From positions 1-26,841 of the IMG/VR virus record IMGVR_UViG_3300017917_004241: DNA of 26,841 bases; one strand, written 5' to 3'. This DNA is from a virus. The notes under the pieces were generated by a model. The model worked only from the letters and a program-made list of their open reading frames with translations, had not been told where the DNA came from and did no database searches. Position numbers and translations under genes: made by a program. Positions 12,208 to 26,841 of this stretch are shown in pieces; the first letter of the stretch is position 1; each line of letters opens with the position of its first letter.

Positions 12208-12891
12208 TTATTCCTTACGGCCGCCGAGCAATTGCAGCAGGCTGATGAACAGATTAATAAAGTTCAAGTACAAGGTCAAGGCACCCATAATTTCCTCTGT
12301 GGTTCCTGCAGAATCTTGGGAGATATTTTCTCTAATCTGTTGTGTGTCGTAGGCAGTGAGACCCAAGAATACCACAATGGCCACAGCCGAGATCAACATT
12401 TGAAATGCCGACGAACCAATGAAGATGTTGACAATACTGGCAATGATAATGGCAATCAGCGCAACAAAACAGTACTTGCCAATGCTGTCAAGATTCTGTT
12501 TGGTAAAGTAACCATACGCACTGAGCACACCGAACAGCACAGCAGCACCCATGAATGCTGTGACAATGCTGCCTAGAGTATAAACTGCAAACAGCATGGC
12601 CATGCTAAGACCCATGAGCGCAGCAAAACCGTGCAACAGACCAAATGCCACTGCTGTGGGCGGCTGCTTGTTCAACACAAACGGGATAGCAAACACTGCT
12701 ACCAAGGGTGCAAAAATCACAACCCATTTCATAACACCAGTGAAAAAGAAGTTTAGCAGCGCAGGGCTAGCAGCAACATTGCCGGCCACAAACATTGACA
12801 TGATCACAGCCAGCATCATTTGAAAATAAACACGCCCCATGGCCTCGTTGATGGCTGGGGCTGTTCGATAAGTTACAGTGGTAGAATACAT
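12208..12891 (-). CDS. Bax inhibitor-1/YccA family membrane protein, 227 aa
   Basis: Multi-pass membrane protein with about seven hydrophobic helices. The C-terminal signature is clear: VFLGLTAYDTQQIRENI followed by LTLYLNFINLFISLLQLLGG, as in bacterial BI-1/YccA proteins (the YDTQ-x-I and LDFINLF-like parts). Another shared feature is the internal repeat of small Gly/Ala-rich helices (AFGLLHGFAALMGLSMAM). In E. coli YccA binds and inhibits the FtsH protease; other members are calcium or pH-sensitive channels. The ATG at 12891 has AGGAG at six bases; the GTG just before it is not needed. It sits at the end of a three-gene run with small unknowns upstream. A phage copy could protect phage or membrane proteins from FtsH during infection; this is an inference. 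Confidence 0.86.
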   Translation of the reverse strand: MYSTTVTYRTAPAINEAMGRVYFQMMLAVIMSMFVAGNVAASPALLNFFFTGVMKWVVIFAPLVAVFAIPFVLNKQPPTAVAFGLLHGFAALMGLSMAMLFAVYTLGSIVTAFMGAAVLFGVLSAYGYFTKQNLDSIGKYCFVALIAIIIASIVNIFIGSSAFQMLISAVAIVVFLGLTAYDTQQIRENISQDSAGTTEEIMGALTLYLNFINLFISLLQLLGGRKE

Positions 12892-12907
12892 CACAGTCTC
12901 CTTTTGA

Positions 12908-16425: not shown

Positions 16426-16659
16426 TTAAGATGACTGCAAAGATGCACCAAAGTAATCTTTGCTGACATGGCAACGCACAGTGCCTGGTCTGAGAAACCC
16501 ACTGTAGCCTGTGCTGCAGGGGTGCACAAAATAGCTGCCGGGTACAAAGCCATGATGCCGCTGGCAGAACTCTGTGATCTCTTGCCTGGTAGGAGGCTGA
16601 CCATCAAACGCCATGAGTACCACGCCAGTTGATTTGTCCATGCTGCTGTCGAAGATCAT
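16426..16659 (-). CDS. small phage protein of unknown function, 77 aa
   Basis: Not recognised. The ATG at 16659 shares bases with the TAA of the paralogue upstream, and its SD (GGAG) lies in that gene's last codons. The sequence has an N-terminal MIFDSSMDKSTG, VLMAFDGQPPTRQEITEFCQRH and a Gly/Pro/Cys-containing C-terminal half (HGFVPGSYFVHPCSTGYSGFL, RCHVSKDYFG). Three Cys and three His in a small protein could bind metal, but the spacing fits no named motif. Confidence 0.66.
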   Translation of the reverse strand: MIFDSSMDKSTGVVLMAFDGQPPTRQEITEFCQRHHGFVPGSYFVHPCSTGYSGFLRPGTVRCHVSKDYFGASLQSS

Positions 16660-16868
16660 TATTTAACTCCGAAATGTTCTTTAATTTCCTGAGTGGCATT
16701 AACAATTACAGCATGGTTGTTTCTGTGAGCCAAAATAGTCAAACATTCTTGAACAATCAACTCGGCGAGTTTTTTAGTATATTCAGGATGAAACTCACTG
16801 CCTTGGTCAACCATGCTGTCGGCATAGTCTTCTGCCTCATATGCCAGTGCTTGAATTTGTTCGTTCAT
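16659..16868 (-). CDS. HFGV-family small phage protein, paralogue 1, 69 aa
   Basis: One of three related genes (with 16865-17092 and 17328-17588). All begin MN-x-QI-x-x-L-A, have a central KLAELIVQEC / KFAELIVREC / KFAELIVKEC block and end EHFGV plus one or two residues. A helix-rich small protein, function unknown, though this pattern is widespread in T4-like phages. The ATG at 16868 is read from an SD inside the end of the previous gene. Its own end again contains GGAGTT (Gly-Val) that serves as the SD for the next gene. Confidence 0.76.
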   Translation of the reverse strand: MNEQIQALAYEAEDYADSMVDQGSEFHPEYTKKLAELIVQECLTILAHRNNHAVIVNATQEIKEHFGVK

Positions 16869-17092
16869 TCTTCAACTCCGAAATGTTCAGCAATCACATC
16901 ATACATACACCGAGTCTCAGTTTCGGTATTCTCAGCACGATTAGCAATTATAGCACATTCCCGCACAATCAACTCAGCGAACTTCTCCAAGTCTTTTTGA
17001 GTGATATAATAGATAGGTTCTGATTCTAACGCCGAATCATCATCAAATTCTAATCCAGCCTGTTCAGCCAGTGATTGAATTTGTTTGTTCAT
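16865..17092 (-). CDS. HFGV-family small phage protein, paralogue 2, 75 aa
   Basis: Shares the MNKQIQSLA opening, KFAELIVREC core (about residues 37-46) and AEHFGVEE end with its neighbours. The middle section is acidic (FDDDSALESEPIYY) and differs from the other two copies. The ATG at 17092 overlaps the previous stop as ATGA. The codons for Gly-Val-Glu-Glu place GGAG 7 bases before the start of paralogue 1. Divergence in the middle suggests that the copies are not recent duplicates and may have different partners. Confidence 0.76.
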   Translation of the reverse strand: MNKQIQSLAEQAGLEFDDDSALESEPIYYITQKDLEKFAELIVRECAIIANRAENTETETRCMYDVIAEHFGVEE

Positions 17093-17328
17093 TCGTCGTC
17101 GTCCCCGTCACATGTAAGATAAGTCAGTGGATCTTGATCTGGATCCATTTTGCGTCCATTCTTCAAATTAAATGCTACCTTATAGGCCACAATACGAGCA
17201 TAGTATTCAAGAATGTCCGGGGCCAATACATACTCTCCTGTTTTGTGGTCGCAGGGCAAGCCACTTGCGCTTTCCAGGGCCACAGACGGGTTGTATGCGT
17301 ACTCCAATTTCATATCTTCGCGTTTCAC
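17089..17328 (-). CDS. small phage protein, 79 aa, between HFGV paralogues
   Basis: Not recognised. The start is GTG 17328, overlapping the TAG of paralogue 3, with GGAG 7 bases upstream inside that gene; the first ATG (codon 6) has no such SD. Sequence: REDMKLEYAYNPSVALES, HKTGEYVLAPDILEYYARIVAYKVAFNLKNGRK, then an acidic end DQDPLTYLTCDGDDDE. The helical DILEYYARIVAYKVA stretch has the look of the ELIV-EC block of the neighbours but without its key letters, so common origin is uncertain. Confidence 0.68.
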   Translation of the reverse strand: MKREDMKLEYAYNPSVALESASGLPCDHKTGEYVLAPDILEYYARIVAYKVAFNLKNGRKMDPDQDPLTYLTCDGDDDE

Positions 17329-17588
17329 TATTCAACTCCAAAATGTTCTTTAATCATCTGTGCTGCTGTTGACCTACCTTGCAGGCGATATATCGCCATA
17401 TATCCAACGACATTTGTATCGGCATCTTTGAATGCAGCAACCTTCATACATTCTTTCACAATCAACTCGGCGAACTTTGCGTAGGCTGCTTCGCACTCTT
17501 CGGCACTCATGGCTCTGGGATATACAGTATGCCCAAGATCCACATATAGACCTGCGTTGTGGGCCAGTTCTCGAATTTGTCCGTTCAT
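17328..17588 (-). CDS. HFGV-family small phage protein, paralogue 3, 86 aa
   Basis: Third and longest copy: MNGQIRELAHNAG opening, KFAELIVKECMKVAAF core (residues about 38-53) and KEHFGVE end. It carries an extra stretch (HTVYPRAMSAEECEAAYA and VVGYMAIYRLQGRSTAAQM). The ATG at 17588 overlaps the stop of the small membrane protein upstream (ATGA). The terminal GGAGTT again forms the SD for the GTG at 17328. Confidence 0.76.
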   Translation of the reverse strand: MNGQIRELAHNAGLYVDLGHTVYPRAMSAEECEAAYAKFAELIVKECMKVAAFKDADTNVVGYMAIYRLQGRSTAAQMIKEHFGVE

Positions 17589-22531: not shown

Positions 22532-22834
22532 TTATCCCATTACAATTTTTTTCTCTGGCACTCTGATGCCAGTAGTTGCTTCAATATACTTCATTTTTAC
22601 AGCATCTTCTGTTTCAGTATACATCGCTATACTGTGAGTATTTATGGTGACAGATTGCCGTGGATCACCGGTGAAAAGACTGGGTACCAGTCCCATGCCC
22701 TGCGGTCCAGGAGCCACACTCACAGGGTCCGTAACATTGATATAATTGCCATTGGTTTCCGACGAATATTTGGCGATCATTTCCTCGCCGCTGTTCAACT
22801 TGAACGTGTAAACTTTTCCTACTTCTAGCATCAT
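22532..22834 (-). CDS. conserved phage protein, possibly Sm-like beta fold, 100 aa
   Basis: Not known by function. The opening VGKVYTFKLNSGEEMIAKY resembles the first strands of Sm/LSm-type barrels (a strand, S/T-GEE loop, strand), followed by VTDPVSVAPGPQGMGLVPSLF, and it ends KMKYIEATTGIRVPEKKIVMG. Similar proteins occur in many T4-like environmental phages, from memory. Two ATGs (22834 and 22831) fit the SD; the first overlaps the glutaredoxin stop as ATGA. It is located between nucleotide metabolism and virion genes, so either role is possible. Confidence 0.7.
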   Translation of the reverse strand: MMLEVGKVYTFKLNSGEEMIAKYSSETNGNYINVTDPVSVAPGPQGMGLVPSLFTGDPRQSVTINTHSIAMYTETEDAVKMKYIEATTGIRVPEKKIVMG

Positions 22835-23061
22835 GCTACCTTTAAAAAATGTTGTTTGAGTTCGGTAAAACCACCAATAAGTTGGCCGTCAAGGAAAATC
22901 TGCGGCACAGTACGTGCATTTGGAACTGCTTCCAACAAGTCTTCTTTGGTAAAGCCGTCACCAATTTTTTTCTCTTCGAACTCAATACCCTGTTGGGTCA
23001 GCAAGGCTTTTGCCTGATCGCAATAGGGGCAGTGATACTTACTCCATACAATAGCTTTCAT
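22831..23061 (-). CDS. grx: glutaredoxin, 76 aa
   Basis: Reduces ribonucleotide reductase and other disulfides using glutathione. Seen: active-site CPYC at Cys11-Cys14 (SKYHCPYCDQAK), the cis-Pro region TVPQIFLDG with Val-Pro at 52-53, and the GGFTELK glutathione-binding turn at 63-69. The length is that of a minimal glutaredoxin. The ATG at 23061 has AAGGA upstream. It lies 12 bases after nrdB, and its role is to feed electrons to NrdA. Confidence 0.92.
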   Translation of the reverse strand: MKAIVWSKYHCPYCDQAKALLTQQGIEFEEKKIGDGFTKEDLLEAVPNARTVPQIFLDGQLIGGFTELKQHFLKVA

Positions 23062-23072
23062 TTTATTTTTCC

Positions 23073-24176
23073 TTATAAGTTTGGTAACTCGTCGTAGTCT
23101 ACATGATCTGTCATTACGCCGATCACATAGTTAGTTGATTCATTTTCTTGCAATGCAGTTTGCTTCTTGCTGGTATTGCTGTGTTTGTTGAACCAAGGAA
23201 TAGGTGTGGTTTTTGGGTGAGATTGATTGTATTTGATCCCAATCTCTTTGAGTGCACCAAATGCAGTGTAGTCCACAAAGTCTTTGAGAATTTGAGCATT
23301 GAGACCAATCACTGGACCTTTGTTAAACAAGTAGTCTGCCCAGGCCTTTTCTTCACGGATAACATCCATGTACATGGCATAGACTTCTTCCTCGCACTCG
23401 GCTTTGACACGAGCAAATCGCGGATCTTCTTTGACAACCTGATTGATCATCCAAGCAGTCCAATCTCGGTGCAAGATTTCATCTTGCAAAATCAAACTAA
23501 TGATGTTGCCGTTGCCAATGAAGATTCTGTTTTCTACCATGGCAAGACTTGTGGCAAAGCTGACCATGAAGCGGAAACCTTCCAATGCATAGCTGGCATG
23601 CAGAGCCAACCAAATTGCTTTGATGTGTTCTTTTTCAGTTACCAGCTCGGGATTTACTTCTTTGAAACTGTTGAGTTTATGCAAAGCATCATAGTAATCT
23701 CCTACAGTGCTGGCCATGTCCACAATTTCTTGAGTGTCATGAATAGTGTTGAACACTTCCTTGGGCACGTTGTAGATGTTACGAATAATGTGACTATAGC
23801 TGCGACTGTGAATGTTGGTTTCAAAGAATGTCCACACATACATCAGTGCTTCCAGTTCAGGAATACCACACACTGGTGTAAAGATTTGGCTGGGTCCGCG
23901 ACCCTGCAAGCTGTCCAAGGCAGTTTGACGCAGCAGGTTGCTGGTAAAAATATGACGCACTGTTTCGGATGCTTCCTTGAAGTCGTTGGCATCCTTGGTC
24001 AACGAAATTTCTTCGGGCACCCAAAAGAAACCACGTTGTTCTTGTTCAAACTTGGCCAGTTTGTTGTACTTGACTTCTTCAAATCGCTGAATGGTCACTG
24101 GACCAGCAGGGTCCAAGAACATCTTGCGTGAGAGATAGTCTGTTTTTGTTGATAGATTATATTGTTTTGAGCTCAT
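23073..24176 (-). CDS. nrdB: ribonucleotide reductase class I beta subunit NrdB, 367 aa
   Basis: Holds the di-iron/tyrosyl radical cofactor of class Ia ribonucleotide reductase, which makes dNTPs for phage DNA. Ligand residues are: Asp88 (LLRQTALDSLQGR), Glu119 and His123 (WTFFETNIHSRSY), Glu199 (YALEGFRF), Glu233 and His236 (LQDEILHRDW), and the radical Tyr127. The spacing from the Glu to the first His is one residue longer than in E. coli NrdB (ETNIH instead of ETIH). The C-terminal tail YDELPNL matches the acidic tail that docks on NrdA. The ATG at 24176 overlaps the stop of the oxidoreductase gene and has AAGGA upstream; a frame to 24233 lies within that gene and is rejected. Confidence 0.94.
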   Translation of the reverse strand: MSSKQYNLSTKTDYLSRKMFLDPAGPVTIQRFEEVKYNKLAKFEQEQRGFFWVPEEISLTKDANDFKEASETVRHIFTSNLLRQTALDSLQGRGPSQIFTPVCGIPELEALMYVWTFFETNIHSRSYSHIIRNIYNVPKEVFNTIHDTQEIVDMASTVGDYYDALHKLNSFKEVNPELVTEKEHIKAIWLALHASYALEGFRFMVSFATSLAMVENRIFIGNGNIISLILQDEILHRDWTAWMINQVVKEDPRFARVKAECEEEVYAMYMDVIREEKAWADYLFNKGPVIGLNAQILKDFVDYTAFGALKEIGIKYNQSHPKTTPIPWFNKHSNTSKKQTALQENESTNYVIGVMTDHVDYDELPNL

Positions 24177-25366
24177 ACCTTTTCCTTGACCAATTTTGCT
24201 AGGTCGCAACCTGTAACCGGCCCCAGTGTCCATCCCAAATGTCCATGACCAGTATTATAAAACACTTTTTGATTTTTTGCACTCTGTTTGATAATGGGCA
24301 TCATGTCCGGAGTCATGGGACGCAGGCATGCCCATTGTGTGTAATCGTGTGTGTTGATTTGGGGGAAGTTGGTGTGCACCCAGGCCAACAACGGTTCGAT
24401 TCTGTTGCGTGTGATGTCGTAGTTTTCGCCAGTGAGTTCAGCGGTACCAGCCACGCGGAATCTATTGCCTAAACTGGATGTGACAATTTTGGCTTGATCA
24501 TCCAGCAAACTCACACGCGGCAGCAATGCAGGATCCACGTTGTTGATGGTAATGCTGTAGCCTTTGATCGGGTAAACATCAATGCTGTCGCCTGCGGTGC
24601 GAGCCAACTCAGTACTACCCACTCCGTTGGCCACTACCACAGCATCGTAAAACTGATCTAGTTCAGCAACATGTTCAATTGGTGTTTCATAACAAAAACG
24701 CACATGGTATTTGCGTTCCAAAATTGTTGCCAGCTGATAACAGAACTTGTGAATATCGCCGGTCCAGTCACTGGCAGTCCATACACCACCAATTACATTT
24801 TTAATATCTCGCAGTGCTGGATCTACATTCTTTACCTGTTTTTCGCTGTGCAACAGATCCCACTCACAACCGTTGTTGAAATAGAGATCGTGTACGGAAA
24901 CGGCATGTTCCCAGTACTCGGGTGTTTTATAAAAATGCAAAATGCCCGACGCAGACTTGTCAAAGTCTGAATCTGCAATATTTTCTTGTGTGCAAATTTC
25001 TTGATACAGGTCTCGACTTTGTACGGCCATGCGAATTGTTTTGGCTGTATTGGCTTTGTGTTTGCCTTGCACAGTGGCCAGCAAAAATTTGACCAACCAA
25101 CGCCACATGGGCCAATCCCAACGCAGTTTTAACAGCAGTGGTGCATCTTTACGCCACAGCCAGCGAGCAGCTCTTTTGATGTTGCTCCAGGTAGTCCAAG
25201 TTTCAGAATTAGAAACTGAGATTTGTCCCCCGTTGGCAAAACTGGTTTTCATGCCTGCGTAACGTTCTGCCTCGTACACAGTGACATGATATCCTTCGCG
25301 AACAAGATAATAAGCGGAGCAAAGACCTGTGATGCCTGCTCCGACTACTGCAATCTTTTTTTTCAA
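24173..25366 (-). CDS. dadA: FAD-dependent D-amino-acid dehydrogenase (DadA)-like oxidoreductase, 397 aa
   Basis: DadA-type enzymes oxidise D-amino acids to keto acids at the membrane, passing electrons to quinones. Seen: N-terminal FAD-binding GAGITG at 9-14 with Glu32 at the end of the second strand (VTVYEAE); FANGGQISVSNSETW near 43-57, a DadA-type segment; DVYPIKGYSITI in the middle; and the C-terminal LRPMTPDMMPII and NTGHGHLGWTLGPVTG of the family. It is somewhat shorter than E. coli DadA (432 residues). The start is TTG at 25366, which overlaps the iscU stop as TTGA and has AGAGGA 7 bases upstream; the FAD motif needs this early start. It is inserted between iscU and nrdB. Substrate could be D-alanine or another amine. 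Confidence 0.82.
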   Translation of the reverse strand: MKKKIAVVGAGITGLCSAYYLVREGYHVTVYEAERYAGMKTSFANGGQISVSNSETWTTWSNIKRAARWLWRKDAPLLLKLRWDWPMWRWLVKFLLATVQGKHKANTAKTIRMAVQSRDLYQEICTQENIADSDFDKSASGILHFYKTPEYWEHAVSVHDLYFNNGCEWDLLHSEKQVKNVDPALRDIKNVIGGVWTASDWTGDIHKFCYQLATILERKYHVRFCYETPIEHVAELDQFYDAVVVANGVGSTELARTAGDSIDVYPIKGYSITINNVDPALLPRVSLLDDQAKIVTSSLGNRFRVAGTAELTGENYDITRNRIEPLLAWVHTNFPQINTHDYTQWACLRPMTPDMMPIIKQSAKNQKVFYNTGHGHLGWTLGPVTGCDLAKLVKEKV

Positions 25367-25749
25367 TGCGCATTCCTCTTTTTGTAATCTTCTACTGCGG
25401 CTTTGATGGCATCTTCAGCAAGAATGCTGCAATGAATTTTCACAGGTGGTAGCGCAAGCTCTTCAGCAATTTCGCTATTCTTGAGGCTCGCTGCTTGGTC
25501 GAGAGTTTTTCCTTTGACCCATTCTGTGACAAGGCTGGAGCTTGCAATTGCCGAGCCGCAGCCGTACGTTTTGAATCGAGCATCTGTAATAATACCTGTA
25601 GCATGATCAACCTTTATTTGTAATTTCATAACGTCACCACAGGCAGGTGCACCCACCATACCAGTACCCACGTCAGGATCACTTTTATCAAATGAACCAA
25701 CGTTACGAGGATTCTCATAGTGATCTATCACTTGTGTAGAATAGGCCAT
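25363..25749 (-). CDS. iscU: iron-sulfur cluster scaffold IscU, 128 aa
   Basis: IscU builds Fe-S clusters on three cysteines. It is full-length (128 residues, as in E. coli) and all ligand positions are kept: Cys37 in APACGD with Asp39, Cys64 in YGCGSAIASSSL, and Cys107 in VKIHCSILAEDAIK; the HscA-binding LPPVK motif is at 100-104. Against my memory of E. coli IscU the similarity is high throughout, for example the N-terminal AYS-x-x-VIDHYENPRNVGSF, so it looks like a recently acquired proteobacterial gene. No other isc genes are visible. The ATG at 25749 has AAGGAG at seven bases, 11 bases after the nrdA stop. It could supply iron to NrdB or take over host Fe-S assembly; this is an inference. 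Confidence 0.93.
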   Translation of the reverse strand: MAYSTQVIDHYENPRNVGSFDKSDPDVGTGMVGAPACGDVMKLQIKVDHATGIITDARFKTYGCGSAIASSSLVTEWVKGKTLDQAASLKNSEIAEELALPPVKIHCSILAEDAIKAAVEDYKKRNAH

Positions 25750-25760
25750 TTGTTAGCTCC

Positions 25761-26841
25761 TTAAAGTTTACATGCTTCGCAATCAGCATCATCAAACTCA
25801 TCTTGCAGCAATGCTGGCGCCAATTCTACCTGATCTTCTTCCACTGACTTGGAACCTTGCTTGTCAATCAAGCTGTAGTACAGTGTCTTGAGACCCCACT
25901 TGTGTGCCTGCATCAAGTTCTTGGCAATCAAGGTTGACGGAACTTTTCTGCCAGGGAAGTGCTTGGGCGAATAGAATGTATTGGTGCTGATACTTTGATC
26001 AATGTAGGCTGCCAACACGGCTGCTGTTTTCAAATAGTCAATGCAGTCGGTTTGTTCCCACATCAGTTGATACTTGTTCTTGAGTTTATGATATTCGGGT
26101 ACAACCTGAGTGAATGAGCCGGCTTTGGATTCCTTGGTCGAAATCAAGCTCATGGGCATCTCAATGCCGTTGGTTGAGTTGATCACAACTGAACTAGATT
26201 CCACAGGTGCCACAGCCATCAGTGTGGCATTGCGAACACCATGTTCTTTCATTTGTTCACGCAGTGGTTCCCAATCCAGTTCAGGAGTAAAATCTGCCAA
26301 CTCGTTGACTCCAGAGGCACGGCGCTCCCAGGGAAACACGCCGCGCCCGTACCAAGTACGATCCGAGTCTTTGCAACGACCTCTTTCCTTGGCCAATTCC
26401 ACTGTGGCTTCGGTTAGATAGTAGGCCTGATGTTCCATCCAGCTTTTTACTTCTGATAATGCATCCTTTTCCCCATAGCGGAATCCGCGTTTGGCATGCC
26501 AGTAAGCAAGGTTAGTAACACCGATGCCAAGTGGCTGAATTTCATCGTTGGAGAGCTTGCTCTGGATCGAGAGGAAGTCTTGGTAGTCCAGTATGTTACA
26601 GAGGCTGCGTTGAAGAATGCGACAAGCACGCCGCATGTCCTCAGGATTCCTGAAGGCACCCCAATTGATTGACCCAAGTGTACAGAGTGCGATACGGCCA
26701 TTATCGTCGTCCAGGCGTTTAAAAGGTTTCGTAGGTAAGAGGATTTCACAGCAAAGGTTTGATTGATAAATGGTGTGATACTCGGGATCAAATGGTCCCT
26801 GGTTCATCACATTGTCCACAAACACTAGATAGATACGACCA
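25761..26841 (-). CDS. nrdA: ribonucleotide reductase class I alpha subunit NrdA (C-terminal 359 residues, cut by window edge)
   Basis: The frame is open to the right edge of the window, reading GRIYLVFVDNV before the visible ATG codons, so the true start is outside. Catalytic residues seen: Asn-Leu-Cys in SNLCCEILLPT (the active-site thiyl Cys region with following Glu), the redox Cys in IALCTLGSINWG, and the radical-transfer tyrosine pair in LKTLYYSLIDKQG. The C-terminal DCEACKL has the Cys pair that is reduced by glutaredoxin or thioredoxin. No intron or intein is visible in this part. It heads the operon with iscU, the oxidoreductase, nrdB and grx. Confidence 0.94.
   Translation of the reverse strand, partial: GRIYLVFVDNVMNQGPFDPEYHTIYQSNLCCEILLPTKPFKRLDDDNGRIALCTLGSINWGAFRNPEDMRRACRILQRSLCNILDYQDFLSIQSKLSNDEIQPLGIGVTNLAYWHAKRGFRYGEKDALSEVKSWMEHQAYYLTEATVELAKERGRCKDSDRTWYGRGVFPWERRASGVNELADFTPELDWEPLREQMKEHGVRNATLMAVAPVESSSVVINSTNGIEMPMSLISTKESKAGSFTQVVPEYHKLKNKYQLMWEQTDCIDYLKTAAVLAAYIDQSISTNTFYSPKHFPGRKVPSTLIAKNLMQAHKWGLKTLYYSLIDKQGSKSVEEDQVELAPALLQDEFDDADCEACKL

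Follow-up and report, generated by a model that had tools for sequence, protein, structure and literature searches.

In a 26.8-kb virus record from an uncultured, T4-like phage, analysed over its whole stretch of 26,841 nucleotides (the window), a full-length iscU and a gene for a DadA-like FAD enzyme lie between nrdA and nrdB, the genes for the two subunits of ribonucleotide reductase (RNR). We consider it probable that these two genes are auxiliary metabolic cargo in a variable slot of the RNR operon, rather than parts of a device that activates the reductase. This is the simplest account: genes needed for NrdB maturation would be expected to remain with nrdB, and iscU and dadA do not.

The genes occupy the right end of the window on the minus strand and read, as open reading frames (ORFs), in the order nrdA (partial), iscU, dadA, nrdB, and grx (Table 1). 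Profile matches identify NrdA and NrdB as class Ia-like. Read in the protein sequence, NrdB has the di-iron ligand motifs LDSLQG, FFETNIHSRSYSHI, ALEGFRF, and DEILHRD, as well as the radical tyrosine (IHSRSYSHII). The nrdA stop is separated from the iscU ATG by 11 nt, with AAGGAG preceding the iscU start; the iscU stop overlaps the TTG start of dadA in TTGA, preceded by AAGAGG; and the dadA stop overlaps the nrdB ATG in ATGA, preceded by AAGGAAAAGG. A Shine–Dalgarno-like stretch thus stands ahead of each of the three starts. A first-pass annotation of this DNA had placed a full-length IscU and a DadA-like flavoenzyme between the two RNR genes and proposed tight translational coupling through the TTGA and ATGA overlaps. 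Coordinates, protein families, and junctions bear out both statements; the nrdB start is refined to 24176, the 386-aa ORF from 24233 being only the longest open frame. Given the overlaps with their neighbors, iscU and dadA probably share the RNR message and are translated from it once nucleotide metabolism is turned on. With every frame intact and purifying selection evident in related loci, the arrangement is not due to chance. The exact order nrdA-iscU-dadA-nrdB was absent from all other loci fetched for comparison; relatives have partial versions, either nrdA-iscU-nrdB (L013, L015) or nrdA-dadA-nrdB (L131, L154, and others).

Table 1. Coordinates of the RNR operon genes and of the variable slot in the window.
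Feature	Position	Strand	Evidence and remarks
nrdA, class Ia RNR large subunit, C-terminal 359 residues	25761..26840	-	PF02867 208 bits, PRK09103 333 bits; truncated by the window end
iscU, full-length Fe–S scaffold, 128 aa, ATG start	25363..25749	-	TIGR01999 219 bits
dadA-like FAD enzyme, 397 aa, TTG start	24173..25366	-	PF01266 196 bits; PRK12409 421 bits
nrdB, class Ia RNR small subunit, 367 aa, ATG start	23073..24176	-	PF00268 143 bits, phrog_86 380 bits
Glutaredoxin (grx)	22831..23061	-	PF00462; comes after nrdB in most related loci
nrdA-nrdB gap, variable cargo slot, ~1.6 kb, contains iscU and dadA	24177..25760	-	Comparison of related loci

Elsewhere on the minus strand, the window encodes a ClpS adaptor (PF02617, 7491–7811) adjoining an Hsp20 chaperone (PF00011, 7880–8326), both phage-borne proteostasis genes, and a Bax inhibitor-1 family membrane protein (PF01027, 177 bits, 12208–12894). 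At least three short, similar-looking tandem ORFs that start with MNxQIxxLA (16659–17588) may belong to an expanding small gene family.

The variability of the nrdA-nrdB gap is apparent from 66 related loci that show both genes, drawn from a non-random sample of the 80 nearest nrdB sequences. In 43 of the 66 loci, the gap contains an ORF of ≥150 aa; in other intervals, such an ORF is found in 7 of 64 (nrdB-grx), 9 of 52 (grx to the next gene), 1 of 48 (the interval after), and 0 of 26 (just upstream of nrdA), with the proviso that ORF calling was mechanical and that absence from fragmentary records is weak evidence. The gap is short (≤250 bp) in 16 of 66 loci. Filled gaps carry, among others, isocitrate lyase (PF00463), class II aldolase (PF00596), class IV aminotransferase (PF01063), 2OG-Fe oxygenase, Asp hydroxylase, a Vut_1 transporter, methyltransferases, and homing endonuclease phrog_655, as well as DadA alone and IscU with or without IscA. 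Isocitrate lyase accounts for eight genes in the 66 loci (L108, L111, L138, L158, L162, and others) and had no match in PHROGs. The nearest NrdB relative (L099, 87%) has a single unrelated 105-aa ORF in the gap. In Xanthomonas X1 and Stenotrophomonas Moby, the cultured phages closest to this one, both RNR genes are present and no gene is annotated between them. On the NrdB tree, whose sample also includes loci found via iscU and dadA, the minimum number of changes is 11 for DadA in the gap, 6 for IscU in the gap, and 18 for empty versus filled, counts in which gain and loss are indistinguishable and which rest on many weak branches. The gap would thus be a point of turnover in the RNR transcription unit, with auxiliary genes repeatedly entering, swapping, and vanishing. 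Homing endonucleases, found in the slots of some relatives, are the likely agents of this variability; the family occupies only about 3 of the 66 slots. The mobility of the slot fits endonuclease insertion between nrdA and nrdB in T4 (mobE), U5 (Hef), and T5-like phages (PMC3322345, PMC3326045), and the general finding that homing endonucleases mark exchange boundaries, often near RNR genes (PMC10448857); for the slot itself, exchange by endonucleases is inferred.

IscU clears the curated TIGR01999 cut-off (219.4 vs 192.4 bits), aligns over its full length with bacterial IscU structures (PDB 2l4x and 3lvl), and has the ligands C37, D39, C64, H106, and C107 along with the LPPVK chaperone motif (PACGD, YGCGS, LPPVKIHCS). 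By these sequence features it is a true IscU, predicted to assemble clusters with IscS. The gene evolves under purifying selection, with dN/dS of 0.03–0.08 among pairs with finite dS. In the viral collection, at least about 600 stretches encode a close relative. Matches labeled Acinetobacter phage MD-2021a, which appear to be bacterial, were set aside. Among the matches listed, IscA, an A-type carrier, comes after IscU in 52 loci and superoxide dismutase (SOD) comes before it in 20, both named by us from the protein sequences and the clusters into which they fall. The string SOD-iscU-iscA recurs in viral contigs (L002–L004, L009, L016, L050–L052, and others). In large records picked by nrdB alone (G009–G016), one iscU was found in eight of eight, 5–10 kb from nrdB, upstream and on the same strand. 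The usual place of iscU is 5–11 kb from nrdB, upstream of nrdA, in the order iscU-iscA-...-nrdA where the stretch is visible (L017, L077, L081); an iscU inside the gap is a minority arrangement (L005, L013, L015, L044, L059, L117, L157, and the window). For the source phage, the iscU count covers the window only, which ends inside nrdA, and the usual upstream site lies beyond.

The likeliest clients of IscU would be phage radical-SAM (4Fe–4S) proteins. Radical-SAM matches, up to 17 in a single record, reach a density of 4.6 per 100 kb in records with iscU vs 1.9 in those lacking it (one-sided Mann–Whitney p 0.0095), a rough comparison of fragmentary records, uncorrected for kinship and record choice. 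The 344–355-kb virus records behind L093, L160, L174, L277, and L320 have a class Ia nrdB, iscU, and 6–17 radical-SAM matches; iscU is split into two pieces in the L093 record. IscU most likely builds Fe–S clusters with the host IscS, HscA/HscB, and ferredoxin, mainly for these many phage enzymes.

The flavoenzyme is a DAO-family protein: PF01266 spans residues 4–391 (196 bits), and the GxGxxG FAD dinucleotide fold is present. Among named families, D-amino acid dehydrogenase PRK12409 gives the best match, but the protein scores under both curated DadA cut-offs (PRK12409, 421 vs 494 bits; PRK00711, 306 vs 383 bits), and we therefore label it DadA-like rather than DadA. An identity as MnmC or ThiO was rejected on HMM scores (421 bits for DadA vs 104 for ThiO and 43 for MnmC). 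The AF2 model (pLDDT 81) matches glycine/sarcosine oxidases and related amino-acid oxidases with TM scores of 0.73–0.80, the glycine oxidase match reaching about 0.8 by target length. The segment WACLRPMTPD aligns with the glycine oxidase WAxLRPxT, and R349, invariant in 11 phage sequences, lies in what we take to be the site of the substrate-carboxylate arginine. The protein had no match in PHROGs, and a single-protein search of genome contigs gave no confirmed relative; an alignment-based scan recovered 291 related viral stretches. The phage sequences kept are 56–71% identical to the window protein, and 84 phage proteins separate from 11 cellular ones on the DadA tree. With dN/dS of about 0.05–0.15 among pairs with finite dS, dadA is kept by selection. 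The enzyme may oxidize amino acids, with D-Ala from the host wall as one possible substrate and glycine as another. D-amino acid use, which the first-pass annotation had raised as a second idea, fits the DadA-like assignment, as read from sequence, better than a role at the NrdB di-iron site.

The position of dadA is not fixed. Among full-length phage genes, 17 of 84 lie inside the nrdA-nrdB gap, several of them nearly identical, and 67 lie outside, beside queD/queE, glyA, or thyA, or after grx; the tree requires at least 12 switches of slot position. Across 87 DadA loci, QueD is found within five genes in 38, QueE in 17, GlyA in 8, and ThyA in 5, and IscU in 6, neighbor counts that are approximate because the mechanical ORF caller overlooks some genes, such as the IscU of L084, visible only by tblastn. 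The gene adjoins queD/queE in L086, L087, L092, L279–L281, L297, L324, and others, and isocitrate lyase adjoins DadA in L273 and L303.

The interpretation first given to this arrangement, that IscU (iron or cluster) and the flavoprotein (electron) build or preserve the NrdB di-iron tyrosyl-radical cofactor, is, unlike the gene identities and the coupling, not supported, and we now judge it very unlikely. It draws on the location between nrdA and nrdB, on the overlaps, and on the proximity of IscU to class Ia RNR in most large records, and it has precedents: E. coli nrdAB-yfaE pairs RNR with a 2Fe–2S ferredoxin, and yeast uses the Fe–S/flavin pair Dre2–Tah18. However, maturation genes of such an operon would be conserved with nrdB, whereas the gap content varies: a quarter of related nrdAB pairs have the short gap, others hold isocitrate lyase, aldolase, or aminotransferase, and the nearest relative has neither iscU nor dadA there. 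In the gene-order survey, both genes lie elsewhere in most relatives, iscU usually upstream of nrdA and the majority of DadA genes outside the slot, a result that the first-pass annotation had named as one half of what would overturn its idea. Moreover, the flavoenzyme resembles amino-acid oxidases, with their carboxylate-type arginine motif, and not flavodoxin/NrdI or ferredoxin reductases, and IscU serves as a scaffold and does not carry electrons. A variant takes the repeated arrival of DadA and IscU as a sign of selection, the flavoprotein (with an amino acid as electron donor) and IscU re-reducing or metallating NrdB so that RNR stays active when host ferredoxin is limiting; we give it the lowest probability of the readings weighed here. 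DadA may nevertheless be selected to sit in the slot, given the 17 of 84 full-length cases. Tying only IscU to RNR, for instance through a host YfaE-type ferredoxin or iron homeostasis, with DadA as unrelated cargo, would explain the single iscU near nrdB in all eight nrdB-picked records, and its near-constant presence within 5–11 kb of class Ia RNR could reflect a functional link beyond synteny alone. Many phage iscU genes, however, lie in other strings, such as SOD-iscU-iscA, with no nrd genes in the fetched flank; iscA is the usual partner among the matches listed, and radical-SAM enzymes are ready clients. On balance this tie is quite unlikely.

Other readings concern the DadA-like enzyme. 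The frequency of QueD and QueE among its neighbors would suit action on nucleotides or DNA, as in hypermodification by MnmC1 or other base-modifying DAO-fold enzymes; yet the HMM scores favor DadA, que genes are absent beside the slot copies, and 30 large records gave no match to TGT-family (DpdA-like) proteins, although a divergent DpdA could escape, and weak, partial QueC matches in five only. We hold such a role to be highly improbable. Supply of one-carbon or glyoxylate/glycine metabolism for nucleotide synthesis is unlikely, too: glycine and sarcosine oxidases are the closest folds, and GlyA, ThyA, and isocitrate lyase occur nearby, but the sequence profile is that of DadA, not ThiO, and these gene associations involve a minority of loci. 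Under the preferred reading of auxiliary cargo, the enzyme most likely oxidizes an amino acid (D-Ala, another D-amino acid, or possibly glycine), yielding a keto acid and ammonia, with the electrons passing to the respiratory chain.

The slot would define a place in T4-like genomes where auxiliary metabolic genes are swapped yet kept in the RNR operon, putting very different metabolic genes under one control. The DadA-like clade is phage-specific and common in environmental viruses, and its substrate is directly testable. In the literature searched, we found no description of the RNR-operon slot or of this clade, and no paper connecting phages, auxiliary metabolism, and D-amino acid dehydrogenase; two papers mention dadA along with viral auxiliary genes.

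Comparison with known systems places the arrangement further. Bacterial DadA/PRK12409 shares with the phage protein a full-length DAO-family match and the motifs TGHGxLGWT and LRPMTPD, whereas the phage protein has at most 47% identity to the best cellular relatives recovered, scores under the family cut-off, and falls in a separate phage clade. E. coli nrdAB-yfaE resembles the phage operon in having an Fe–S-related gene with class Ia RNR; YfaE, however, is a ferredoxin that reduces NrdB, whereas the phage IscU is a scaffold whose position is not kept in relatives. In marine T4-like viruses, IscU and A-type-carrier genes have been linked to phage Fe–S enzymes, in genomes that also encode radical-SAM proteins and glutaredoxin (Nishimura et al. 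2017, PMC5332604). These, too, are environmental T4-like phages with an IscU gene, but the available portion of that paper describes no nrdA-nrdB placement, unlike the window, whose iscU lies inside the RNR operon with dadA. The endonucleases of T4, U5, and T5-like phages use the identical intergenic position as an insertion site (PMC3322345, PMC3326045), whereas the inserts here are mostly metabolic genes. Finally, phage class Ia RNR operons in which nrdA and nrdB are sometimes split by other genes have been reported, the inserts appearing in the accessible part of that account as ‘proteins of unknown function’ (PMC3653736); here, the inserts are named and turn over among related loci.
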